IMG/VR virus record: IMGVR_UViG_3300036985_000326 | Coordinates: 1-35,548 of that record | DNA length: 35,548 nt | DNA from: a virus | Strand: one strand, 5' to 3' | Notes under the pieces: generated by a model | Told to the model about the DNA's origin: nothing | What the model saw: only the letters and a program-made list of their open reading frames with translations | The model's database searches: none | Program-made: the position numbers and the translations under genes | Part shown: one piece after another, positions 23,204 through 35,548 of the stretch | Position numbering within the stretch: the stretch's first letter is position 1 | Layout of the letters: the number at the start of each line of letters is the position of its first letter

Positions 23204-23583
23204 GTTTAGAGAAGCAACCACATGGAGGGTTTTTAAACCGATATGAGAAAGGCGCAGCATGGAAGGGTAATAGGAATGGTAGACCTAGAAAGTACATAAC
23301 TGACCTAGCACCAATGGGTTATAAGAACGCACAGGTAATGGATTGTATTCAAGTATTAATGGCAATGACTGTGGATGAACTTAAAGCGGTTTGGGATAAC
23401 AAGGAAAGCACTATATTAGAAAAGACTTTGGCAAACGCTTTAATCAAATCAATGGCTAAAGGTTCTTTGTATTCAGTAGATACATTATTAAGTAGGGTAT
23501 ACGGTAAGCCTAAAGAAACTACGGCAGTAATTCAGGATAGCAAAATAGAAGTAGTTTTTGTTAAGGGTAAAACTATTTTATGA
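23200..23583 (+). CDS. terS: Putative terminase small subunit
   Basis: A 127-aa basic protein: FLNRYEKGAAWKGNRNGRPRKY is the NGRPRK-type opening found on small terminases and related DUF5681-like proteins; a helical middle (TVDELKAVWDNKESTILEKTLANA) and KGSLYSVDTLLSRVYGKPKE follow. It would bind the packaging site and recruit the large subunit, whose start overlaps its stop by 4 nt. Position is strong evidence. Confidence 0.7.
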   Translation: MSLEKQPHGGFLNRYEKGAAWKGNRNGRPRKYITDLAPMGYKNAQVMDCIQVLMAMTVDELKAVWDNKESTILEKTLANALIKSMAKGSLYSVDTLLSRVYGKPKETTAVIQDSKIEVVFVKGKTIL

Positions 23584-24734
23584 TTTTAGAGTTACCAGAA
23601 GCACATACAAATCAATTAAAAATACTTGAATCAAAAGCAAGGTTTAGGGTTGTAATGTGTGGCAGAAGGTTTGGAAAGTCTGAATTGTCACAGGTTGAAA
23701 TAATCAGTAATGCAATTCAAGGAATGAACGTAGCATATATTACACCAACCTATAAACTAGCAAAAACATTCTTTGAGAAATTAACACAAAGTTTACCATT
23801 TGAAAACAACAAAAGCGATTTAACAATTCATTTTCCCAATTCGGGAACTGTTGAATTTTTCACAGGCGAAAGACTAGATAACTTAAGGGGTAGAAAATTT
23901 CATTTAGTTGTTATTGATGAAGCAAGTTTTATACCTAATTTAGAAGATGGCTGGCTAAATTCAATCCGACCAACGTTAACCGATTATCAAGGTAGAGCAT
24001 TATTCCTATCTACACCAAGAGGTAAAAATTATTTTTATTCTCTTTACATGAAGGGAGGGCAAAAGGATTGGGATAGTTTTAAATTTACTACATACGACAA
24101 TCCTTATATTTTAACTTCAGAAATTAATGACGCAAAAGCACAGTTACCAAATGCAGTATTTGAACAGGAGTATATGGCTAACCCAATGGAGAACGCAGCA
24201 AACCCATTCGGTTCAGAACATATAAATAAATGTGTAAAGTTCATAAGTACCAATGAACCAATGTATTATGGAATAGATTTAGCAAAGTCATTCGATTGGA
24301 CTGTCATTATTGGATTAGATTCTAATGGAGATGTTTGCCATTATGAACGATTTCAAAAAGATTGGCTTCAGACAAAAGAAACAATTAAAAACATACGAAA
24401 GCATAAACATATTTTTATTGATAGCACTGGAGTAGGTGATGCAATTGTTGAGGACTTACAAAAGCACTTTAACGACATGACTGGATTTAAATATACATCA
24501 ACTAGCAAGCAACAATTAATGGAAAGCCTTGCATCATCAATCCATAAAGCCGAGATAGGATTCCCAATTGGTGCAATCAAAGATGAATTAGAAATATTTG
24601 AATATCTATTTACATCAACTGGGGTAAGGTATTCAGCGCCATCCGGATTCCATGATGACTGTGTAAATGCTTTAGCTTTAGCCAATAAATGCCGGATTGA
24701 AAATAGGGGAAGCGGACAATATCACTACATTTAA
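23580..24734 (+). CDS. terL: Terminase large subunit
   Basis: The packaging motor and genome-cutting nuclease. ATPase: Walker A CGRRFGKS at 27-34, Walker B LVVIDEAS near 109-116, and a coupling motif ALFLSTPRGKN. RNase H-like nuclease: YGIDLAKSFDW near 230, IFIDSTGVGD near 278 and FHDDCVNALALA near 357. At 384 aa it is at the short end for the family but no motif is missing. It sits downstream of terS and heads the packaging/tail block. Confidence 0.95.
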   Translation: MILELPEAHTNQLKILESKARFRVVMCGRRFGKSELSQVEIISNAIQGMNVAYITPTYKLAKTFFEKLTQSLPFENNKSDLTIHFPNSGTVEFFTGERLDNLRGRKFHLVVIDEASFIPNLEDGWLNSIRPTLTDYQGRALFLSTPRGKNYFYSLYMKGGQKDWDSFKFTTYDNPYILTSEINDAKAQLPNAVFEQEYMANPMENAANPFGSEHINKCVKFISTNEPMYYGIDLAKSFDWTVIIGLDSNGDVCHYERFQKDWLQTKETIKNIRKHKHIFIDSTGVGDAIVEDLQKHFNDMTGFKYTSTSKQQLMESLASSIHKAEIGFPIGAIKDELEIFEYLFTSTGVRYSAPSGFHDDCVNALALANKCRIENRGSGQYHYI

Positions 24735-24754
24735 TTACATTTCTCAAAAACTTA

Positions 24755-24760
24755 TATAAT
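24755..24760 (+). promoter_or_regulatory. TATAAT box 6 nt before a late gene
   Basis: TATAAT with 6 nt to the ATG at 24767. The same box at nearly the same distance precedes the genes at 30963 and 31990. It could be a phage-sigma -10 element giving near-leaderless mRNA, or only an AT-rich initiation context. Confidence 0.3.
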
Positions 24761-24766
24761 AGATAT

Positions 24767-25414
24767 ATGACAATTAAACAATTTCAAGAGTTGTACTATG
24801 TGGCTACTTCATCCGATATTGACCTAGATAAGTCAATTAAGATGGTAGGGATAGTAACAAATAAAACACCCGAACAGGTGGAAGCAATGTCAATGCTCCG
24901 ATTTAATTTACTATGCGCAAGGGTACACAATGAGTTTAAATTATTTGAAAGAGATTTATTAAAAACCAAACCAAAAAAGATAGTAAGGATAGGAAAGCGC
25001 TTTTATAAAATCAATTACGATATAGCAAAAGCAAAAGCATCAACCTATGTTGAAGTTGCAACCTTTAGCACTGATATTATTCAGAACTTACATAAGGTAA
25101 TGGCTTCAATAGTTACACCGATTAAATTTAGATGGGGCAAGTGGGTTGAGGTAGAGCATGAAGATTTAGCAAAGGAAATGGAATCAATGGATTTCGAGGC
25201 TGCTTATCATGCAGCGGTTTTTTTTTACACACTATTCAATGTATCAATGCAAGTTATCCAGCCTTATTTGATAAACGAAATAACAAGGAAGGGGATATCG
25301 AAGGAGAAAGCAACGGAGATACTGACGAATTCGCAAAGCATTTTGGATGGCTTTACAATGCCAAGATGGTCGCAGACTTCGAAGGAATACCTTTACAATC
25401 GGTTTGGGATTTAA
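24767..25414 (+). CDS. Putative tail assembly chaperone, unshifted product
   Basis: A 215-aa protein: MTIKQFQELYYVATSSDIDL, VEAMSMLRFNLLCARVHNE and KWVEVEHEDLAKEMESMDFEA in a helical layout typical of the small chaperones that coat the tape measure during tail assembly. Near its end is a run of nine T (25218-25226). From about 25285 this frame turns unlike the genome, using TCG, ACG, GAG, AAG and CTG, while the -1 frame becomes normal and continues to 25497. I take this as the unshifted half of a frameshifted pair. Role inferred from arrangement and position after TerL. Confidence 0.6.
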   Translation: MTIKQFQELYYVATSSDIDLDKSIKMVGIVTNKTPEQVEAMSMLRFNLLCARVHNEFKLFERDLLKTKPKKIVRIGKRFYKINYDIAKAKASTYVEVATFSTDIIQNLHKVMASIVTPIKFRWGKWVEVEHEDLAKEMESMDFEAAYHAAVFFYTLFNVSMQVIQPYLINEITRKGISKEKATEILTNSQSILDGFTMPRWSQTSKEYLYNRFGI

Positions 25415-25497
25415 AAGTTTTACATTTTTTAAATGATTTACTTTATTTAAAATTAAAGCAGGATAAAGAAAATGAGCATAACAAAAAGCCAAGCTAG
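25162..25497 (+). CDS. -1 frame extension of the tail assembly chaperone
   Basis: The -1 frame is open from 25162 to a TAG at 25495-25497. Past the T9 run it encodes an acidic linker (NNKEGDIEGESNGDTDE), then a compact domain (FAKHFGWLYNAKMVADFEG, IPLQSVWDLKVLHFLNDL, YLKLK). This is well-formed protein with the A/T-ending codons of this genome and no ATG of its own at a sensible place. A -1 slip on the T-run would give a 243-aa fusion (153 + 90 codons). This mirrors lambda gpG/gpGT, whose shifted tail binds the tape measure. The alternative is a miscounted T-run in the assembly. Confidence 0.6.
   Translation, partial: RFSKGNGINGFRGCLSCSGFFLHTIQCINASYPALFDKRNNKEGDIEGESNGDTDEFAKHFGWLYNAKMVADFEGIPLQSVWDLKVLHFLNDLLYLKLKQDKENEHNKKPS
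25218..25226 (+). promoter_or_regulatory. T9 slippery site for -1 frameshifting
   Basis: Nine T in a row, read GTT TTT TTT T in frame 0, contain an in-phase T TTT TTT heptamer that lets both tRNAs re-pair at -1. A missed base in the run would mimic a shift, so read support matters. Confidence 0.5.
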
Positions 25498-26110
25498 AGA
25501 AATTGCACTAGGCAGGAATCTAGAAGGTGATTTTAATTTGGAGGATAATAAATTAATTGATTTAAAAGATGTTACGCTTTCATTTTTTGAAAAATACGCA
25601 GCTATTTATTTACTTGCAATCAGTGAAAGCATAAAGAAAAATCAAGTTGTCGGCAGTGGTAAAATGCTAAAGGGTATTGACCCGCAGATTTCAAAGGAAG
25701 AAAGTACCATGCGTATTTACATGGCTGATTATTATGACTTTGTAAATAAAGGGGTTAAAGGTGTAAAGAATTATAAGAATGCGCCAGCAAGTCCTTATAA
25801 ATATAAAAATTATGTAATGAATGCCGAAGGTAGGGCATCAATAAAAGATTATATACAAAGCGGTAAAGCGAAGATAAGTGTAGCAACAAAGAAAAACACA
25901 ACAAACGCAGTAGGATTAGAAAAGAAAAAAATTAGTTTAATTGATTTAAAAACAAATACTTTAATTTATTTGATTAAAAAGTACGGTATTAAAACGACTA
26001 ACTTTTTTGATGAGGCAACCGAAAGCGTAAGAAAATCAATGATTGAAGATATAAGCGAAGTAATGGCACAAACAATAGTAATTCAAATAGGACAACCCAA
26101 AAAGAAATGA
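25472..26110 (+). CDS. Putative tail completion / HK97 gp10-like protein
   Basis: A 212-aa basic protein. SFFEKYAAIYLLAISESIKK then GKMLKGIDPQISKEESTMRIYMADYYDFVNKGVKGVKN resembles the gp10-type tail-completion proteins: a helix, strands, and a Tyr-rich turn. The C-terminal half is Lys-rich helices. It overlaps the chaperone extension by 26 nt and the next gene by 4 nt. The gp10 link is by pattern and neighbourhood only. Confidence 0.45.
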   Translation: MSITKSQAREIALGRNLEGDFNLEDNKLIDLKDVTLSFFEKYAAIYLLAISESIKKNQVVGSGKMLKGIDPQISKEESTMRIYMADYYDFVNKGVKGVKNYKNAPASPYKYKNYVMNAEGRASIKDYIQSGKAKISVATKKNTTNAVGLEKKKISLIDLKTNTLIYLIKKYGIKTTNFFDEATESVRKSMIEDISEVMAQTIVIQIGQPKKK

Positions 26111-27255
26111 GTATAACAATTAACACAAACCCAGCAAGCGGAAGTACTGCACAAGATGACCTGTGGCACGTTGCAACAAGTACGGCATCCGGTTCAACTG
26201 ATATGAAATATATCTTTGAAGTATATGTTGGTGGAAATAGGAAAATATCAGTAAGGCAATTTCCTGAACCATCAAACGGTAAAGCATATTTTAACGCAGG
26301 TGCTACGGTGCGAAATAGCATGACTTTTAATTGGTTTGAGCCAATTGGTAGCGCTTACGTTTATGAGCCAAATTTAAGCGGTGAAATGGCGGTACAATAC
26401 GATATAAGAGTAGGTGAGGAAGTAAGCGGAATAACCACCTTTAATTTAGCATCTGGAAGCGTAACTGCATACAATTACAATGCGCCATTATTCAAAAGGA
26501 GGGTTGCTACATTATCAGATAGGTTAAATAAATGGTTAACAGTCCGTCCAGCTTATGCCAATACTAAACTAGGTGAAAATTTATATATACCATTTTATAC
26601 AAATGCGGCATTAAATTTAAAGTGTTCAACCTATGACGCTTCAAATAATTTAATAGCTACGGCAAGCGGAAGCACTACCACAATAGAAAATGGATTTGTA
26701 CAAATGAATATCGGAAGCGCAGCCATTGCAACCGAATTAGGTATTACAATTAACGATAGTGTAAAGTATTATGAAGTTTGGTTTAATAGTTTTGATAAAA
26801 TAAGGGTTAATGTTGTTTGCAATCCAAAGTACGACCCTATAAATATTCACTTTGTTAACAGTTGGGGGATGTGGGATAGCGAAAGATTTGATTTAGTTAG
26901 TAAACTTAATATGTCGGTTGAAAGGAAAGGATTCGAGCAAAGAGATTATAGATTTAACGGTAATGCAGTTGAATACAAAAGCGCATCAAATAGGTATTAT
27001 GAAGGTGCAATTAATTATAGTAATAAATCAAATTTTACTTATAAGTTAACTGCTGACGCATTAACGGATGATGAGTATACTTGGATGGCAGACCTTATAG
27101 TATCACCACAAATATTAATGGAAATTGAAGGATATTTTTATCCAGTAACATTGACTGAAAATAATTACGAGTTTAGTAAAAATGTATTTAACAAATTAAA
27201 GGCATTAGAGTTAACGTTTAATATGAACCAAACAAGATACTCCCAATTACGATGA
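26107..27255 (+). CDS. Tail/baseplate structural protein
   Basis: A 382-aa beta-rich protein (MKYIFEVYVGGNRKISVRQF, GEEVSGITTFNLASGSV) with late aromatic segments (INIHFVNSWGMWDSERFDLV). No enzyme motif. It lies between the tail-completion gene and the hub-like gene and overlaps both by 4 nt. Bacteroidota phages often carry such a protein here, probably at the tail tip. Exact role not determined. Confidence 0.55.
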   Translation: MSITINTNPASGSTAQDDLWHVATSTASGSTDMKYIFEVYVGGNRKISVRQFPEPSNGKAYFNAGATVRNSMTFNWFEPIGSAYVYEPNLSGEMAVQYDIRVGEEVSGITTFNLASGSVTAYNYNAPLFKRRVATLSDRLNKWLTVRPAYANTKLGENLYIPFYTNAALNLKCSTYDASNNLIATASGSTTTIENGFVQMNIGSAAIATELGITINDSVKYYEVWFNSFDKIRVNVVCNPKYDPINIHFVNSWGMWDSERFDLVSKLNMSVERKGFEQRDYRFNGNAVEYKSASNRYYEGAINYSNKSNFTYKLTADALTDDEYTWMADLIVSPQILMEIEGYFYPVTLTENNYEFSKNVFNKLKALELTFNMNQTRYSQLR

Positions 27256-29282
27256 CAAGAATATTAATCGAAGGATTTGACCTAGATATTGACAAAGGAT
27301 TGAGCAATCAAATTACTTATTCGGTAAGTGATTTAAAAGCAATAGATACTAAAACAACTTCATTTAGTAAAACAATTATATTACCTGGAACTGCAAATAA
27401 TAATAGTTTGTTGGGTAATATATTTGAGTTTAATAATGCTAACTATACAAACATTGTTGAGCCAAATGTTAAGTACAATTACAATGCAAGTAAAACGGCA
27501 AAGTGCAGTATTGAAGTAAATGGAATGACTGTTATTAAAGGAATATTTAAATTGCTTGAAATTATTATTGATGGGGAGAATATCGAATATGAATGTAGCG
27601 TAATCGGTGAACTTGGCGGATTTTCAATGAAAATGGGGGCAAAGAAAATTGAGGAGTTAGATTTTAGCGTTTATAATCATGTTTACAGTATAGCAAATAT
27701 AACTGGTAGTTGGGCAAATGAAAATGCAGGGGCTGGGTATTATTATCCCTTAATTGATTATGGTACTTATTCAACCGATAAAAAAAATTGGAAATATGGA
27801 ACTTTTAGACCTGCTTTATTTGTAAAAGAATATTTAGAAAAGATTTTTGAAGTTAATGGCTATACGTATGAATGTGATTTATTTAGTACGGATAGATTTA
27901 AAAGATTAATCATTCCACATAACTTAAAAAAAATAGTAAGCTATCTAACAGGGCAAATGGAGTTAGCTGCTAAAATTGCAACCTATACAGGCGCAACGGC
28001 TTGGAGATGGAATGCAGTAACATTGGGCGATTTCCTTTCTGGAGATATTGATGGAGAAAGTTGGTATTATAACGGAGCAAGCACAATAACCGCAAATTTT
28101 AAAATAGCATTATCAGGTCAAGTTATTTCACAGGATGGCGCTGGAGTTAAACCATTTGAATTAAGAAAGAATGGGGTTATAATTGGATTTGTAAATATAA
28201 CAACCGGAAGCAGTTTACCATATACATTTTCTAATAAGCAAATAAATGTAAATAATGTAAGTGTTGCAAATGGTGATACATTTTCCGTTACTTATCCATC
28301 TTATAGTATAACATCATTAAGACAAATTACAAGTTCATTTAAAGTAACTACTAATTCAGTTAGTCCAGTAACAATCAATTTAGGGGATACAATTACTATA
28401 AATGACTGCATACCTAAAAACATACTTCAAAAAGATTTCTTTGCTTCGATTCTTAAGCTATTTAATTTATATGTAGATGAGAATAGGTTTGATGAAAAGC
28501 ATTTGATTATTAAACCTTATGTTGATTATTATAACGGAACTGTTGAAGATTGGAGTGATAAAATAGATAGGGCAAAACCGATTAGAATTAAACCTATGTC
28601 GGAATTAAATAGTAGGTACTATTCTTTAAAATATAAAGATGATAATGATTATTGGAACGAGTTATATAAAAAAAGATATAATGAAGGATATGGTAGCAGG
28701 ATATTTGACAGCGAATATGAGTTTTCTAAAGAGACTGAAAATGTAGAATTAATTTTTGCACCAACACCATTGGTCGGGTATGCAGGTGAAGAAAAAATTT
28801 ACAGCACTATATTTAAACAAACAAATGCGCTAGAGGAAACCATTGATAGTGTTATTAGAATATTAGTAGCAAAGAAAATTACAGGGGTTGCAAGTTATAA
28901 TATCCTAGATGGTGCGACTGTATTAACAAGCCAGACTGCTTATGGATATGCTGGACATTTTAACGACCCTGATGCAGTAGCAAACGATTTAAATTTTGGT
29001 GCAACACAAGAACTATTTTTTACATTAGTTAGTGGCGCTTTAAATGTTAACCAGTTCAATGTTTATTATAGTCCTTACATGGCAGAGATTACCGATAAAG
29101 ATAGCAGGTTATTAAGTTGCAATGTAAAGTTAACCGATGTGGATATTTTCAATCTTGATTTTGCAATTTTTAAATATATTGATGGCGGTTTATATAGGTT
29201 AATTAAACTTACTGATTATACACCAGAAGCAAACGAAACAACGAAGGCAGATTTTTTAAGAGTAATAAATAAAGAATATTAA
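27252..29282 (+). CDS. Putative tail hub / baseplate protein
   Basis: A 676-aa protein with the opening common to Bacteroidota-phage tail-tip proteins: LDIDKGLSNQITYSVSDLKA, TTSFSKTIILPGTANNN, NYNASKTAKCSIEVNGM. Residues about 265-385 form an extra Ser/Thr-rich beta domain (FELRKNGVIIGFVNITTGSS) that could bind a surface glycan. Then ILQKDFFASILKLFNLYVDE and HLIIKPYVDYYNGTVEDWSD return to the hub-like core. It directly precedes the tape measure. The family call is moderate, the glycan idea speculative. Confidence 0.6.
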   Translation: MTRILIEGFDLDIDKGLSNQITYSVSDLKAIDTKTTSFSKTIILPGTANNNSLLGNIFEFNNANYTNIVEPNVKYNYNASKTAKCSIEVNGMTVIKGIFKLLEIIIDGENIEYECSVIGELGGFSMKMGAKKIEELDFSVYNHVYSIANITGSWANENAGAGYYYPLIDYGTYSTDKKNWKYGTFRPALFVKEYLEKIFEVNGYTYECDLFSTDRFKRLIIPHNLKKIVSYLTGQMELAAKIATYTGATAWRWNAVTLGDFLSGDIDGESWYYNGASTITANFKIALSGQVISQDGAGVKPFELRKNGVIIGFVNITTGSSLPYTFSNKQINVNNVSVANGDTFSVTYPSYSITSLRQITSSFKVTTNSVSPVTINLGDTITINDCIPKNILQKDFFASILKLFNLYVDENRFDEKHLIIKPYVDYYNGTVEDWSDKIDRAKPIRIKPMSELNSRYYSLKYKDDNDYWNELYKKRYNEGYGSRIFDSEYEFSKETENVELIFAPTPLVGYAGEEKIYSTIFKQTNALEETIDSVIRILVAKKITGVASYNILDGATVLTSQTAYGYAGHFNDPDAVANDLNFGATQELFFTLVSGALNVNQFNVYYSPYMAEITDKDSRLLSCNVKLTDVDIFNLDFAIFKYIDGGLYRLIKLTDYTPEANETTKADFLRVINKEY

Positions 29283-29283
29283 A

Positions 29284-30921
29284 ATGGCAGATACAAAATC
29301 AACGATAGCATTAGAGATAAAAGTAAATGGTGAAGCAGCAACGGCATCGGTAGGTAGTTTTAAAAAGCAATTAAAAGATGCTAATAATGAATTGCTTAAT
29401 ATGGCTTCTCAATTTGGGGAGGCATCAAAAGAGGCATTAAACGCAGCAAAGAAAGTAGCAAGTTTAAAAGATTCTATCGGAGATGCAAAAGCACTAGCAG
29501 ATACATTTAACCCAGACAAAAAGTTTGTTGCTTTAGGTGGTGCATTACAAGGGGCAACGGCTGGATTTAGTGCATTACAAGGCGCTATGGGGCTATTTGG
29601 GAGTGAAGGCAAGGAGGTTGAAAAAGCATTGTTAAAGGTTCAAAGCGCAATGGCTTTACAACAAGGGATAAGCGGTATTGCTGGGGCAATGGATAGCTTT
29701 AAAATGTTGGGTAATGAAATTAAGGGCAATCTTGTAAAAGCATTTAGCACATTAAAGGGTGCAATTGCAGCGACTGGAATAGGTTTATTAGTTGTTGGAG
29801 TAGGGTTATTAGTAGCAAACTTTGAGAAGGTTAAAGAAGTAATGTTAAACTTGATTCCGGGATTATCAAAAGTTACTGATTTCTTTGGTAAGATGATAAA
29901 TGCAGTTACTGATTTTGTTGGTGTTACAAGTGAAGCAGAAAGGGCAACTAATAGGATGATTTCGGCAGCCGATAAAAGCATTGATAAAAATAAAAAATTT
30001 TTACAGGAACATGGAGACGAAATAGACCAATATACAAAAAGAAAAATTGATGCAGAGATAAGTTATAATGAAGCAATAAAAGTAAAGGGTGCTGACCAAG
30101 TTGAAATGGCTAAAAGATTGAATAGAGAATTAGCACAAGCAGATGTAGATAGAAGAAAACAAATTAATGCCGATGCTAAAGCAGTAAAAGATAAAAATGA
30201 TAAAGATGCTGAAGCAGCAAAAATAAAAAGACAAGCAGCAACTGATAAATATTTTGAAGATGCAAGAAAGCAAGGTGCGAAAGATTTAGAAATAGCAGCC
30301 GCAAAAATAAAAGACGAACAAGAACAAATAAAAAAAGAAGAACTATTGGCAGGTTCAAAAGTTACAATCAGTTCAAATGCTGCAATAGCGGTAAGGGATG
30401 CCACAAAAATGAGTGTTGAACAAACAGACGCATTAAAGAAAAAATATAATGATATTGATTTAGCAGATGCAAAAATATTGCAAGATGCAAAAGTAAAGGC
30501 AACACTTGATACTTTAAATATTGTCAGCGATATACTAGGCAAGGAAAGCGCAGCCGGTAAAGCAATGGCAATTAGTATGGCTTTAATTAATACTTATCAA
30601 GGTATTGCGGCAGGTGTTAAACTTGGTTTTCCTTTAGCAATTCCTGCGGTATTGGCAGCGGCAGCAACTGGATTTAAAGCAGTTAAAAGTATTATTGCAA
30701 CTAAAATACCTGGAGGCGGTGGCAGTGGTGGAGGAGGTAGTGCGCCATCAATGGGAAGCATAGCAGCACCAATAAAGCCTGAAGCACAAACTACAACATT
30801 ATCAACGCAGTCAATTAATCAAATAGGTGTAGCAAGTTCAAGGGCATTCGTATTGGAAACTGATGTAACAAATAACCAAGAAAGGATACAAAGATTAAAT
30901 CGCGCTGCGAGAATCAATTGA
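29284..30921 (+). CDS. Tail tape measure protein
   Basis: A 545-aa helical protein that sets tail length and is ejected with the DNA. An Ala/Lys-rich coiled coil opens it (SFKKQLKDANNELLNMASQF). A hydrophobic pair of segments lies near 160-180 (AATGIGLLVVGVGLLVANF), followed by a long charged Ala/Lys coiled coil (about 240-365) and a second hydrophobic region (GFPLAIPAVLAAAATGFKAV). A Gly/Ser linker (GGGGSGGGGS) precedes the tail end. At about 0.15 nm per residue, the tail would be roughly 80 nm. Among the longest late genes, as usual for a tape measure. Confidence 0.85.
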   Translation: MADTKSTIALEIKVNGEAATASVGSFKKQLKDANNELLNMASQFGEASKEALNAAKKVASLKDSIGDAKALADTFNPDKKFVALGGALQGATAGFSALQGAMGLFGSEGKEVEKALLKVQSAMALQQGISGIAGAMDSFKMLGNEIKGNLVKAFSTLKGAIAATGIGLLVVGVGLLVANFEKVKEVMLNLIPGLSKVTDFFGKMINAVTDFVGVTSEAERATNRMISAADKSIDKNKKFLQEHGDEIDQYTKRKIDAEISYNEAIKVKGADQVEMAKRLNRELAQADVDRRKQINADAKAVKDKNDKDAEAAKIKRQAATDKYFEDARKQGAKDLEIAAAKIKDEQEQIKKEELLAGSKVTISSNAAIAVRDATKMSVEQTDALKKKYNDIDLADAKILQDAKVKATLDTLNIVSDILGKESAAGKAMAISMALINTYQGIAAGVKLGFPLAIPAVLAAAATGFKAVKSIIATKIPGGGGSGGGGSAPSMGSIAAPIKPEAQTTTLSTQSINQIGVASSRAFVLETDVTNNQERIQRLNRAARIN

Positions 30922-30950
30922 GTATAAATTAAACAACTATTTTTAAATTA

Positions 30951-30956
30951 TATAAT
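30951..30956 (+). promoter_or_regulatory. TATAAT box 6 nt before the protease gene
   Basis: TATAAT with 6 nt to the ATG at 30963, in the 41-nt gap between the tape measure and the capsid block. It is the second of three such boxes. Confidence 0.3.
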
Positions 30957-30962
30957 ATAAAT

Positions 30963-31970
30963 ATGAATTTACCTATTTACGATTTAATAATTAATAACGA
31001 TGAGGACAACGATGCAGAGGTTTCATTTGTGGCTTTGGTTGATTCTCCTGCAATTAAAAAGGACTTTCTCGCATTTAATGAGGAATTTATAAACCCATCA
31101 AAAGGAGAGCAAAAGGATGAATTTTTACCACGTTGCATAAGTTATGTAATTAACGAAGGAAAGGAAACGGAACAAGCGGTTGCAATTTGTAACAGTTTAT
31201 GGGAGGAACATTTTGCAGGTGCAAAGGTTTCATTTGACTACGATGATACATTAAGCACAAGCAGGGGTAAAGAATTAGCAAAGAAAGAAATAGCAAGCGG
31301 TAATACCGTTTATATTATTTCAGCACGAAGCGACAAAGGTGCAATGCTTGGAGTAGCAAAAGATTTAGGTATACCCGATAGTAGGGTTTATGCAACTGGC
31401 AGCAACAAGGCTAAAGTTGAAAAGGTAAAAGAATTAGGCATATCAAAGCACTACGATAATAATAGTGATGTAATTAAGGAACTAGGCAGCATAGGAGAAA
31501 AGTTTATGCTAATGGCTTTCGCTATTCAATCAGAAAATGAGCATATCATTACAGGTGCTTTAATGATTCCACAACAATTAATTTATAGAAATTCAGAACA
31601 GTTCGGAGAACATTACGTAAAGTTTTCAGTTGAAACAATTAAACAAATAGCAATTAAGTTTAGCAAGAAGGGATACCAAAAGAACGTAAACATAATGCAC
31701 GAGGCAGATATGCAAGTGGAAGGGGTAACAATGTTTGAAAGTTTTATAAGCGATTCAAAGAGGGGTATTAAACCGATGGAGGCATTTAAAGACTTGCCGG
31801 ATGGAACTTGGTTTGGTAGTTTCTATGTTGAGAATCCTAAAGTTTGGGAATTAGTAAGGTCAGGTGAAGTAAAAGGATTTAGCGTGGAAGGTATGTTTGA
31901 CTATGAAACACCAATGTCTGAAGATGAAAAACAATTAGCAGAATTAAGAGAAATTTTAAACAGTTTTTAA
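30963..31970 (+). CDS. Prohead serine protease (XkdF-like) with an inserted HAD-like domain
   Basis: A 335-aa fusion. Residues 1-40 (MNLPIYDLIINNDEDNDAEV, FVALVDSP) open like XkdF-type proteases. Residues 52-85 hold FLPRCISYVINEG and EQAVAICNSLW, a short Cys motif seen in several Bacteroidota-phage head proteins. Residues 88-172 are HAD-like: DYDDT at 92-96, Ser120 in YIISARS, Lys149 or Lys151, and DNNSD at 165-169. Residues 180-318 return to the protease: ALMIPQQLIYRN, His246 (NIMHEADM) and Ser308 (GFSVEG). It would mature the capsid; phosphatase activity is inferred. Followed by scaffold and capsid genes. Confidence 0.75.
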   Translation: MNLPIYDLIINNDEDNDAEVSFVALVDSPAIKKDFLAFNEEFINPSKGEQKDEFLPRCISYVINEGKETEQAVAICNSLWEEHFAGAKVSFDYDDTLSTSRGKELAKKEIASGNTVYIISARSDKGAMLGVAKDLGIPDSRVYATGSNKAKVEKVKELGISKHYDNNSDVIKELGSIGEKFMLMAFAIQSENEHIITGALMIPQQLIYRNSEQFGEHYVKFSVETIKQIAIKFSKKGYQKNVNIMHEADMQVEGVTMFESFISDSKRGIKPMEAFKDLPDGTWFGSFYVENPKVWELVRSGEVKGFSVEGMFDYETPMSEDEKQLAELREILNSF

Positions 31971-31977
31971 AAATCAA

Positions 31978-31983
31978 TATAAT
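31978..31983 (+). promoter_or_regulatory. TATAAT box 6 nt before the scaffold-like gene
   Basis: TATAAT with 6 nt to the ATG at 31990, in a 19-nt gap. Third box of the set. Confidence 0.3.
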
Positions 31984-31989
31984 AGTATT

Positions 31990-32556
31990 ATGGAAGCAAA
32001 AGAAATATTACAAAAAGTAAAGCAATATTTTAACGAATTAGCTGCACCTGAAGTTATGGCTGCCCCAATGGTAGAACCTAAAGAATACGAACTAAAAGAC
32101 GGTGGGAAAGTTATGATTGACGTTCTTGAAGTTGGCGGTATTGTAATGATTGACGGTAGCGCTGCACTTGCAGGAGAAGCCGAGTTGGCAGATGGTACAA
32201 AAATGACTATCGGAGATAACGGTGTTATTACTGCAATCGAATTAGGTACAGGAATGGAACCAGCAGAACCAATTGCAGAACCTATCGTTGAAGATATGGG
32301 AACAAAATTTGCTGCATTCGAAACATTGACATCAGAAAAGTTTGCTAATTATGAGATTAAGTTTTCAGCCTACGAACAACGTTTTGCTGATTACGAAGTT
32401 AAAATGAAGAAAGCAAACAAAGTAATTGACGAACTTTTGAAATTATCAACTTTACTTGTGGAAGCACCAGTACAAGCACCTGATAGTTCAGTAAGAACAT
32501 CAAACGCTTTTAAAGAAGAAGTAGAAAAAAAGAATCTTAATATTTTATTTAATTAA
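31990..32556 (+). CDS. Putative capsid scaffolding protein
   Basis: A 188-aa acidic protein just before the major capsid gene. An N-terminal helix (AKEILQKVKQYFNELAA) is followed by a strand-rich middle (ELKDGGKVMIDVLEVGG) and a coiled coil (FANYEIKFSAYEQRFADYEV, KANKVIDELLKL). An acidic, helical scaffold that would be cut by the upstream protease fits both composition and position. It could instead be a decoration protein. Confidence 0.55.
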   Translation: MEAKEILQKVKQYFNELAAPEVMAAPMVEPKEYELKDGGKVMIDVLEVGGIVMIDGSAALAGEAELADGTKMTIGDNGVITAIELGTGMEPAEPIAEPIVEDMGTKFAAFETLTSEKFANYEIKFSAYEQRFADYEVKMKKANKVIDELLKLSTLLVEAPVQAPDSSVRTSNAFKEEVEKKNLNILFN

Positions 32557-32576
32557 ATTAAACATAAAAAAAAATC

Positions 32577-33542
32577 ATGGCATTAGCTTTTAGCGGATTA
32601 TCCGCATACACAAAACAACTTGTTAAACCACTACTTACCAGTGCTGTATTTGACGCAAAAACACAACAGTTAATTCTTGCAAGTGGTATCGTTATACCAA
32701 ATGTAAAAAGTTCTGTTGCAATTCCTTTGATGGAAACCGATGCAGTATTTGCTGCACAGTCTTGTTCTTTCGATGCAAGCGGTACAACTACCTTTTCTCA
32801 ACGTACTATCACAGTAGGTAAAATTAAAGTTGAAGAAAAAATTTGCCCGAAGGATTTAGAGGCGTACTTTACACAAGAAGCGCTCAAAGCTGGTAGTACT
32901 TACGAGGACTTTGGTAATGCAGATTTTCAAAAAGCATACTTCGATAAAAAGAATATCCGTATCGCTTCTCAACTTGAAACTGCAATATGGCAGGGAGACG
33001 CAACAGGTGCAACCGCTAACACTAATAAGTTTGATGGTCTACAAAAATTAATTGCTGCTGGTTCTCCAGTACTTGCTAACGTATCTGGTTACACAGGTGT
33101 TACTGGTTCTCCAATTGTAACTGTTAATGCTTCAAACATTATCGCTGCAACTGAAGGTATCTACAAAGCTATTCCTGTTCAAGTATTGAGCAAAGGTGAT
33201 GTGAAAATATTCGTTGGTAATGATTGGTATCGTTTGTTGATTCTTGCTTACAGAGAGAAAAACATGTTCTCTTACAATCCACAAGATTCACAAGCAGCTT
33301 CATTTATCTTGCCTGCAACTAACGTTGAAGTGATTAGCGTAAATGGTTTGAACGGAACTGGTGATGCTTACGCAATCAGTCTTTCTAACATGGCTTTAGC
33401 AGTTGATTTGGTCGATGAGGAAGGTTCATACAAAATGTGGTATAGCGAAGATAATAACGATGTACGTTATAGAGTAGAATTTAAAATGGGAGTAAACGTT
33501 GCATTCACAAACGAAGTAACTTCTTTCATCGCTGCAATCTAA
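32577..33542 (+). CDS. Major capsid protein (HK97-like)
   Basis: A 321-aa shell protein placed after protease and scaffold. It starts MALAFSGLSAYTKQLVKPLL, has a strand-rich arm (FSQRTITVGKIKVEEKICPK), a helical segment (KKNIRIASQLETAIWQGDA) and ends in YRVEFKMGVNVAFTNEVTSF, the late strands of the HK97 fold. Codon use shifts towards CGT, TTC, ATC, AAC and TAC compared with the AGA/TTT/ATT/AAT norm here, as expected for the most highly translated gene. A terminator hairpin follows. Confidence 0.85.
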   Translation: MALAFSGLSAYTKQLVKPLLTSAVFDAKTQQLILASGIVIPNVKSSVAIPLMETDAVFAAQSCSFDASGTTTFSQRTITVGKIKVEEKICPKDLEAYFTQEALKAGSTYEDFGNADFQKAYFDKKNIRIASQLETAIWQGDATGATANTNKFDGLQKLIAAGSPVLANVSGYTGVTGSPIVTVNASNIIAATEGIYKAIPVQVLSKGDVKIFVGNDWYRLLILAYREKNMFSYNPQDSQAASFILPATNVEVISVNGLNGTGDAYAISLSNMALAVDLVDEEGSYKMWYSEDNNDVRYRVEFKMGVNVAFTNEVTSFIAAI

Positions 33543-33552
33543 ATTTTCTAAC

Positions 33553-33590
33553 ATAGGGCGGTAGTAAAATATCGCCCTATTTAATATTAT
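33553..33590 (+). terminator. Terminator-like hairpin after the capsid gene
   Basis: ATAGGGCG (33553-33560) pairs with CGCCCTAT (33573-33580) across a 12-nt loop, then an AT-rich run with TTT. It is weaker than the other terminators because the U-tract is interrupted. It may cut transcription after the abundant capsid mRNA or protect its 3' end. Confidence 0.6.
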
Positions 33591-33595
33591 ATTTT

Positions 33596-34117
33596 ATGCC
33601 ATCATGTGCAATAGTTAGCGGATATACAATAGATTGTAGGGATTCAGTAGGTGGAATTGATGCAGTATATTTCGCAGAATTTGGAAACGTAACAATACTT
33701 GATGCTAGTGGTATCGTTACAGGAATTACAAAAGTAGCTGGCAAAAAGTTTTATAAATTCGAGATACCTACAAAATCAAGTGCAGTTGCTTCAAGCAATC
33801 CAACTGGTTCAATCGAAAATGGTACTTTGTTTTTTGAGCAAACTTTGGATTTCCCTATCAATAAAAGGGATGCCACCACTAGAAACATCATAACTACTTT
33901 AAGTAAAAATAAAGTTATAGCAGTTACTCTAGATAAGGATGGCACTTATAGAATGTACGGTAAACAATTTGGAATGTATTTAGCTGCAAGCACTGGCACA
34001 AGTGGCGCTGCTGCCGCTGATGCACAAGGATATGTGTTGAAATTTGAAGCTAGTGAAAGAGAAGATTTCTTTGAAGTTACAAACGCATTAGGTTTGGCTT
34101 TGACTACCGCAGGATAA
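33596..34117 (+). CDS. Putative major tail tube protein
   Basis: A 173-aa beta-rich protein. The opening (GYTIDCRDSVGGIDAVYFAE, FGNVTI) and the centre (GTLFFEQTLDFPINKRDA) are the pattern of abundant virion proteins of Bacteroidota siphophages that probably form the tail tube. It sits between capsid and portal, bounded by terminator-like hairpins on both sides, so its expression could be set apart from the others. Tube assignment is by pattern, not structure. Confidence 0.6.
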   Translation: MPSCAIVSGYTIDCRDSVGGIDAVYFAEFGNVTILDASGIVTGITKVAGKKFYKFEIPTKSSAVASSNPTGSIENGTLFFEQTLDFPINKRDATTRNIITTLSKNKVIAVTLDKDGTYRMYGKQFGMYLAASTGTSGAAAADAQGYVLKFEASEREDFFEVTNALGLALTTAG

Positions 34118-34141
34118 CAATTCTTAATTTATTAATTTATG

Positions 34142-34169
34142 CCCCGACCGATGAAAGTCGGGGTTTTTT
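34142..34169 (+). terminator. Strong intrinsic terminator abutting the next gene
   Basis: CCCCGAC (34142-34148), 8-nt loop, GTCGGGG (34157-34163), then TTTTTT. It is the most GC-rich stem in the window. The next ATG is only 3 nt past the T-tract, leaving little room for a promoter. Confidence 0.88.
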
Positions 34170-34172
34170 CTT

Positions 34173-34541
34173 ATGATAAATTTAACGAAAGGACTTACCG
34201 AAACAATTTACTTTACTGGTACTGAAAAGGCTACCATCGACAACCCATTTTTTTTATTTGTGTTTATCCACAGGGTAACGCTTGATGTGGTTAAATTAAT
34301 GGCTACAAATCAAAGTATAACTGGCAGATATGATAAATTTGCATTTACGGTAAATAACTTTTTTGATTTAAAGGAGGAAGGATTTTGGAGTTATACTATA
34401 CATCAAAAAGTATTGGTAACTGATTTTACAGTAGCAGGGTTAATAGTTGAGGAAGGTTTTATGTATCTTAATCCAGCAACTGCATTTGAACCAACAAAAT
34501 ACGAAGAACAAAATAATAATTTCGTTACTTATGGAGAATAA
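34173..34541 (+). CDS. Small structural-type protein of unknown function
   Basis: A 122-aa strand-rich aromatic protein (GLTETIYFTGTEKATIDNPF, LFVFIHRVT, GFWSYTIHQKV, EEGFMYLNPATAFEPTKYEE). Proteins of this length and pattern commonly precede the portal in Bacteroidota phages, with no firm role; a minor virion or connector part is likely. It begins 3 nt after a terminator T-tract and its stop overlaps the portal start by 11 nt, so portal translation is probably coupled to it. Confidence 0.6.
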   Translation: MINLTKGLTETIYFTGTEKATIDNPFFLFVFIHRVTLDVVKLMATNQSITGRYDKFAFTVNNFFDLKEEGFWSYTIHQKVLVTDFTVAGLIVEEGFMYLNPATAFEPTKYEEQNNNFVTYGE

Positions 34542-35548
34542 TTATAAAAATATTATTACGGTTAAATTCGCACAAGCGGAGCAACCTAAATTTGAGGAAA
34601 AGAAAGGCAAAGGATATGTTGAATTTGGTTTAAATAACAATTACCCAGATTACCTTATAGGATTGTATAATGAAAGTCCAAAACATGGTGCAATCATCAA
34701 AAGCAAAACTAATTATATTTTTGGTCAGGGTTGGGATGGCATAGAACAAAAGGCAAATGTTAAGGGTGAAAGCTGGAATCAAATTACTAAAAAATGTATT
34801 TTAGACGATGAACTTTTTGGAGGTTATTATTTACAGATTATTTACAATTTATTAGGCGAGATTAAAGATGTATACCACCTTGAGTATCATAAAGTAAGAA
34901 CGAATAAAGAGCAAAACGAATTTCAGGTAAAAAATGATTGGTCAGATACTAAAGAAAAGCCGAGATACTATCCTGCATTTAATATTAACGACCCAGTAGC
35001 TAGCCAAATATTATTTGTTAAACAATACAATCCTAAATCAGATATCTATCCTCTACCTAATTATTTTCAGGGATTAAATTACATTGAAAGCGATGTGCAA
35101 GTAAGCAGACATATTTTAGGTAATGCAAAAGATGGTTTTGTTGCTACTACTTTAATCAATTTAAATGGAGGTGAACCAGCAGAGGAAGCAAAAGAAGCAG
35201 TTGAAAGAGGAATAAAAAAGAAGTTTACAGGAAGCGAAGGGGATAGGGTTGTTATTATGTTTAACAAATCAAAAGATAATAGTGCTGAAATATTGCCGTT
35301 ATCTTCTACGATGTTAACAAAGGAAGATTTCACGAATGTAAATAATTTAATTCAACAAGAGATATTTGCATGCCATCAGGTTACTTCACCGAGTTTATTC
35401 GGGATTAAAACAGAGGGGCAGCTTGGCGGTTCAACCGAGATAAGAGACGCCTATAAAATATTTGCCAATACATACGTTAACGAAAGACAACAAGCGATTG
35501 AGGAAGTATTTAACCAATTGTTTGACTATGTAGGTATTGAGGGAGATT
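34512..35548. repeat. Right copy of the contig-end overlap (allele B)
   Basis: The partner of 1-1037: 126 identical bases, then 784 nt with 57 substitutions (7.3 percent by my count), then exactly 127 identical bases to the window end. Only two substitutions change an amino acid (Val to Ile, Asn to Thr). Confidence 0.9.
34531..35548 (+). CDS. Portal protein, 5' part of a second allele (cut by window end)
   Basis: The first 339 codons of a portal gene that matches the gene at 20 except for two residues. The reading frame is intact and simply runs off the end of the window. It represents a second version of the portal gene, not a duplicate gene. Confidence 0.88.
   Translation, partial: MENNYKNIITVKFAQAEQPKFEEKKGKGYVEFGLNNNYPDYLIGLYNESPKHGAIIKSKTNYIFGQGWDGIEQKANVKGESWNQITKKCILDDELFGGYYLQIIYNLLGEIKDVYHLEYHKVRTNKEQNEFQVKNDWSDTKEKPRYYPAFNINDPVASQILFVKQYNPKSDIYPLPNYFQGLNYIESDVQVSRHILGNAKDGFVATTLINLNGGEPAEEAKEAVERGIKKKFTGSEGDRVVIMFNKSKDNSAEILPLSSTMLTKEDFTNVNNLIQQEIFACHQVTSPSLFGIKTEGQLGGSTEIRDAYKIFANTYVNERQQAIEEVFNQLFDYVGIEGD

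Follow-up and report, generated by a model that had tools for sequence, protein, structure and literature searches.

The locus examined here raises the question of whether two open reading frames that overlap in the −1 register are expressed as a single gene through a programmed frameshift and, if so, what kind of protein that gene encodes. Within the 35,548-nt stretch of viral DNA that was analysed (the window), a 215-aa frame-0 ORF begins at an ATG and is overlapped by an open −1 frame, with a run of nine T residues lying in the overlap (Table 1). The run places T TTT TTT in the phase required for a tandem −1 slip, and an in-phase heptamer with two overlapping, −1-related frames is the arrangement expected of a G/GT-type tail assembly chaperone gene. 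The shifted product would consist of 243 aa, with the first 153 residues common to both products. An earlier note on this DNA had described the extent of both frames, the heptamer within their overlap and a 243-aa shifted product, all of which were borne out by the ORF coordinates. The next gene (25472–26110) starts 26 bases before the −1 frame closes, and the end of the shifted product overlaps this third ORF.

We consider it likely that the locus is a G/GT-type tail assembly chaperone gene in which a minority of ribosomes shift by −1 on T TTT TTT. Most ribosomes would remain in frame 0 and produce the 215-aa protein, while a minority would slip back one base on the heptamer, enter the −1 frame and produce the 243-aa protein, in which the shared residues would be followed by a linker and a helical domain. 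If lambda gpG and gpGT are a guide, the tape measure protein may be bound by the shared part and the tail tube protein recruited by the −1 domain of the minor fusion (PMC5009743).

Table 1. Features of the frameshift locus and its neighbours, in window coordinates.
Feature	Position	Strand	Remark
Terminase large subunit (TerL), neighbour	23580..24734	+	phrog_2 E 9.9e-48, Pfam Terminase_6N
Frame-0 ORF, predicted unshifted G-like product, 215 aa	24767..25414	+	kept in 57 related same-clade contigs
N-terminal region, ~residues 13–53, Phage_TAC_7 / phrog_166-like	24803..24925	+	below curated cut-off
Open −1 frame	25162..25497	+	post-shift translated part 25225–25494, stop 25495–25497
T9 run	25218..25226	+	GTT TTT TTT TAC in frame 0
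Slippery heptamer T TTT TTT	25219..25225	+	122/122 loci; 159/160 in site-blind scans
Two-frame overlap, both constrained	25226..25414	+	codon-position substitution rates, codon randomisation
Acidic variable linker, −1 frame	25270..25329	+	alignment; low pLDDT at −1 tail residues 18–30
Helical T-like −1 domain (FGWLYNAKMV ... FLNDLLYLKLK), conserved	25330..25458	+	11 invariant −1-tail columns in 30 sequences; predicted helices
Probable tape measure protein, neighbour	29284..30921	+	phrog_1538 E 0.0017, weak

Relatives were collected by scanning IMG/VR with the frame-0 protein and its profile, down to ~33% identity, and more were added from a scan with the −1 tail. The T9 run stands in the same codon phase in all of these relatives but one (L073) and, where the contig is long enough, it is followed by a −1 tail of 88–95 codons that ends 77–131 bases past the frame-0 stop. 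With L073 set aside, 122 loci from two clades, equivalent to 37 representatives at 90% identity, were compared. All 122 possess an in-phase T TTT TTT with an open −1 frame, a run of at least nine T and a T at each of the three wobble positions of the heptamer; in the remainder of these genes TTT accounts for 61% of Phe codons (624/1027) and GTT for 41% of Val codons (487/1199). In dinucleotide shuffles of the window, T9 runs numbered 12.8 on average over both strands, against two in the actual sequence; T9 is avoided in this genome yet retained at the slip site. The slippery run for which the earlier note proposed a comparison of relatives is therefore conserved, as is the −1 domain, both as expected of a G/GT-type chaperone, and no relative examined lacked the −1 ORF. 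Two loci considered as frame-fusing T10 variants (L075 and L136) acquired the tenth T by substitution, A-to-T in L075, with the frame unaltered.

Two additional scans were blind to the slip site, using only peptides of the −1 domain as queries, and the 80 best loci of each were kept. T TTT TTT was present in 159 of these 160 (80/80 in the window clade and 79/80 in the sister clade). The single exception, L206, reads GTA AAT TTT ATA at about 254–263, placing A AAT TTT, a standard heptamer, in phase, and is the sole locus examined with a non-homopolymer slip site in this gene. A further variant, L243, reads GGT TTT TTT TAC and retains the heptamer with only T8, while in some other loci AAT or AGT precedes the two Phe codons. 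The run is thus not kept as a long homopolymer in every member, and L243 and L206 suggest that the heptamer is conserved rather than the run length, each variant being a single contig that carries little weight for the window itself. Five candidate exceptions (L334, L336–L338 and L231) were rejected because the match had merely begun elsewhere, the heptamer being present.

An identical fusion protein would be made if RNA polymerase, rather than the ribosome, slipped on the run, such that some transcripts contained ten U and ordinary translation read into the −1 frame. In bacteria, slippage is documented where nine A or T stand in a row (PMC5009743), and the minimum of nine T throughout the 122 loci first compared is consistent with such a process. 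A search for a conserved RNA stem downstream of the slip site, of the kind that may stimulate ribosomal shifting, was negative (consensus energy −0.92 kcal/mol; z below −2 in 2 of 10 single sequences), and in E. coli shifting occurs less readily on U UUU UUU than on A AAA AAG (PMC5009743); both points count against a ribosomal shift. However, L206 has no long run and L243 falls short of nine T, and the outer two T of T9 are explicable by the encoded amino acids, namely V, L, I or F before the heptamer and a −1-frame Leu after it. Because of the A AAT TTT and T8 variants, ribosomal frameshifting is favoured over transcriptional slippage on these sequence comparisons, and the latter is considered unlikely.

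The earlier note had held that frame 0 loses its coding character after about 25285. Between close relatives, pairwise differences by codon position were 0.10, 0.07 and 0.33 upstream, where only frame 0 is read, and 0.11, 0.07 and 0.17 in the −1-only tail. In the overlap, counted by frame-0 codon positions, they were 0.09 (first), 0.10 (second) and 0.17 (third), and the elevated third-position rate of each frame is therefore damped there; the same flattening was seen in mid-range relatives, and less of it in the most distant. When the frame-0 protein was held fixed and synonymous codons were randomised, the −1 frame stayed open in ~2% of trials per lineage, and with the −1 protein fixed frame 0 stayed open in ~9% of trials on average, figures that are not to be multiplied into one probability as the lineages are not independent. 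Given the damped third-position rates and the randomisation, a loss of frame-0 coding character is unsupported at the level of evolution, and the substitution pattern indicates that both frames of the overlap are constrained, with two predicted products bearing alternative C-termini.

Except in L073, the frame-0 tail is conserved and open throughout the relatives, and the number of frame-0 codons after the slip site is 62 in the window and ranges from 16 to 79 in relatives. The chances are about even that the shift swaps one functional C-terminus for another rather than adding one, in which case the unshifted tail would have a job of its own. On that reading the overlap would consist of two selected tails in two frames. 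In L073 the frame corresponding to the frame-0 tail is broken by several stops, as expected if only a translated tail is maintained free of stops.

The nature of the protein was approached through family and structural matches. The window protein itself had no Pfam or PHROGs match at the thresholds used. Among 27 family members, 14 matched PF10109 (Phage_TAC_7, which includes P2 gpE and Mu gp41; best E 9.9e-5) and 18 matched the tail protein family phrog_166 (PHROG 166; best E 1.2e-4), in each case over ~40 N-terminal residues. The curated PF10109 cut-off of 25 bits was not reached, the best member shown with coordinates scoring 19.9 bits, and at 79 positions the Pfam model is much shorter than the window protein, the rest of which, including the −1 domain, matches nothing. 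The N-terminus is accordingly filed as resembling PF10109, weakly but repeatedly, and not as a member. P2 also makes use of −1 frameshifting (PMC5009743). In the predicted structure of the −1 tail (pLDDT 72), a short helix is followed by a low-confidence linker and then by a helical domain; the domain had no relative among PDB folds and none in Pfam. A short fold match to A0A8S5L849, annotated as a tail assembly chaperone, was obtained (rmsd 1.4 over 52 columns, E 0.87). Both the frame-0 model and the −1 tail also have a match in A0A6J7WJY4, a viral protein of 243 aa (38% identity), which suggests that single-ORF versions may exist.

The late genes of the window (23580–35548 and 1–2014) begin with TerL and the putative chaperone, continue with three unknown genes and the probable tape measure gene, and end with probable capsid genes and a portal-like ORF, with tail genes preceding head genes. 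A candidate tube protein is encoded at 33596–34117. At the two ends of the window, positions 34512–35548 and 1–1040 both encode the beginning of the portal-like ORF with few differences; the record is therefore likely to be that of a circular or terminally redundant genome, the overlap being strain-variant. A position directly upstream of the tape measure gene is typical of G/GT-type chaperones, though not universal. Here three genes and ~4 kb separate the two, the tape measure call being weak.

The frameshift could be real and the product another late protein, for example a neck or head–tail protein. Such an assignment would accommodate the lack of a significant family match for the window protein, the location of the gene after TerL and at a distance from the tape measure gene, and a −1 domain without a solved relative. 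The repeated PF10109 and phrog_166 matches argue against it, as does the fold match to A0A8S5L849, despite its E value, and a late gene with a conserved −1 frameshift typically encodes a tail chaperone (PMC5009743); a different late function is hence regarded as improbable. The tail assembly chaperone proposed in the earlier note thus keeps the support of the family matches and of gene order in the late region, though not that of adjacency to the tape measure gene, and is most likely the function of this gene as predicted from sequence.

The predicted structure of the frame-0 protein (pLDDT 77) matched gp38 of the cultured Nonlabens/Persicivirga phage P12024S (E 1.8e-6). As in the window, gp38 lies directly after TerL and contains a T9 run in the same phase, read CTT TTT TTT TAT, and the −1 frame of P12024S runs through the annotated 55-aa gp39. 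A scan with gp38 recovered 63 loci, all with the slip site. When profiles of the two clades were compared, frame 0 aligned with E 1.4e-16 over 205 columns and the −1 tail with E 1.4e-8 over 82 columns, from its first residue; these alignments, at 14–16% identity, indicate that both halves are homologous between two distant clades. The P12024S gene differs in that its frame-0 tail extends only 25 codons past the site and in that gp38 and gp39 are annotated as separate hypothetical proteins. Together, gp38 and gp39 of P12024S (JQ823122, L123; 23136–23830) are most likely one frameshifted gene, and P12024L retains both frames. Proteins of the window and of L070 had no match in INPHARED phages by tblastn, and the window proteins had none in bacterial and archaeal genome contigs. 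A weak fold match to Flavobacterium phage 6H was discarded, the gene examined being without a T9 site. No paper linking Flavobacterium phages with a frameshifted tail chaperone was found in the phage literature searched, a negative of little weight given that most subscription papers lie outside it.

The annotation of gp39, whose ATG overlaps the gp38 stop, also illustrates how the −1 frame might be taken for a separate gene with its own start codon, and an ATG is likewise present at codon 48 of the −1 tail in the window. Such starts differ between lineages and mostly fall after the conserved FGW motif, while most lineages have no start upstream of GW and the −1 tail of L145 contains no ATG, GTG or TTG. 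Moreover, the stretch from the slip site to any start is itself conserved, and separate initiation would leave the invariant heptamer unexplained; it was rejected as very improbable. A sequencing or assembly error or a broken gene, in which ten T would join one continuous frame, is barely credible: L073 alone shows such a T10 (about 1307) in a single continuous 246-aa ORF, and may be a genuine fusion or itself an assembly error, but the relatives refute this account, since many separate assemblies and the cultured P12024S records likewise show T9, P12024L preserves two frames, and the frame-0 tail is maintained outside L073.

The preferred reading, a ribosomal −1 shift in a chaperone gene, resembles lambda gpG/gpGT, where a late gene also uses a −1 frameshift to make a minor product with a different C-terminal domain (PMC5009743). 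In lambda, however, the slip site lies near the 3′ end of gene g, whereas here the further frame-0 codons beyond the site are numerous and conserved, and the window gene is not beside the tape measure gene; the sequence relation to lambda was compared by family searches only. The locus represents a new family within a kind already known, that of the probable G/GT-type chaperones. The family is large and frequent in aquatic metagenomes, and one cultured pair, the marine phages P12024S and P12024L, links it to Bacteroidota phages; well over 100 related phages, this pair included, have retained its slip site. Gene callers can split or truncate genes of this family, of which the published P12024S genome is an example. 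The near-invariant site and its rare natural variants (T8, A AAT TTT and the fused T10) together provide ready material for distinguishing ribosomal from transcriptional slippage, and the doubly constrained overlap clearly exemplifies selection on two protein tails within a single stretch of DNA.
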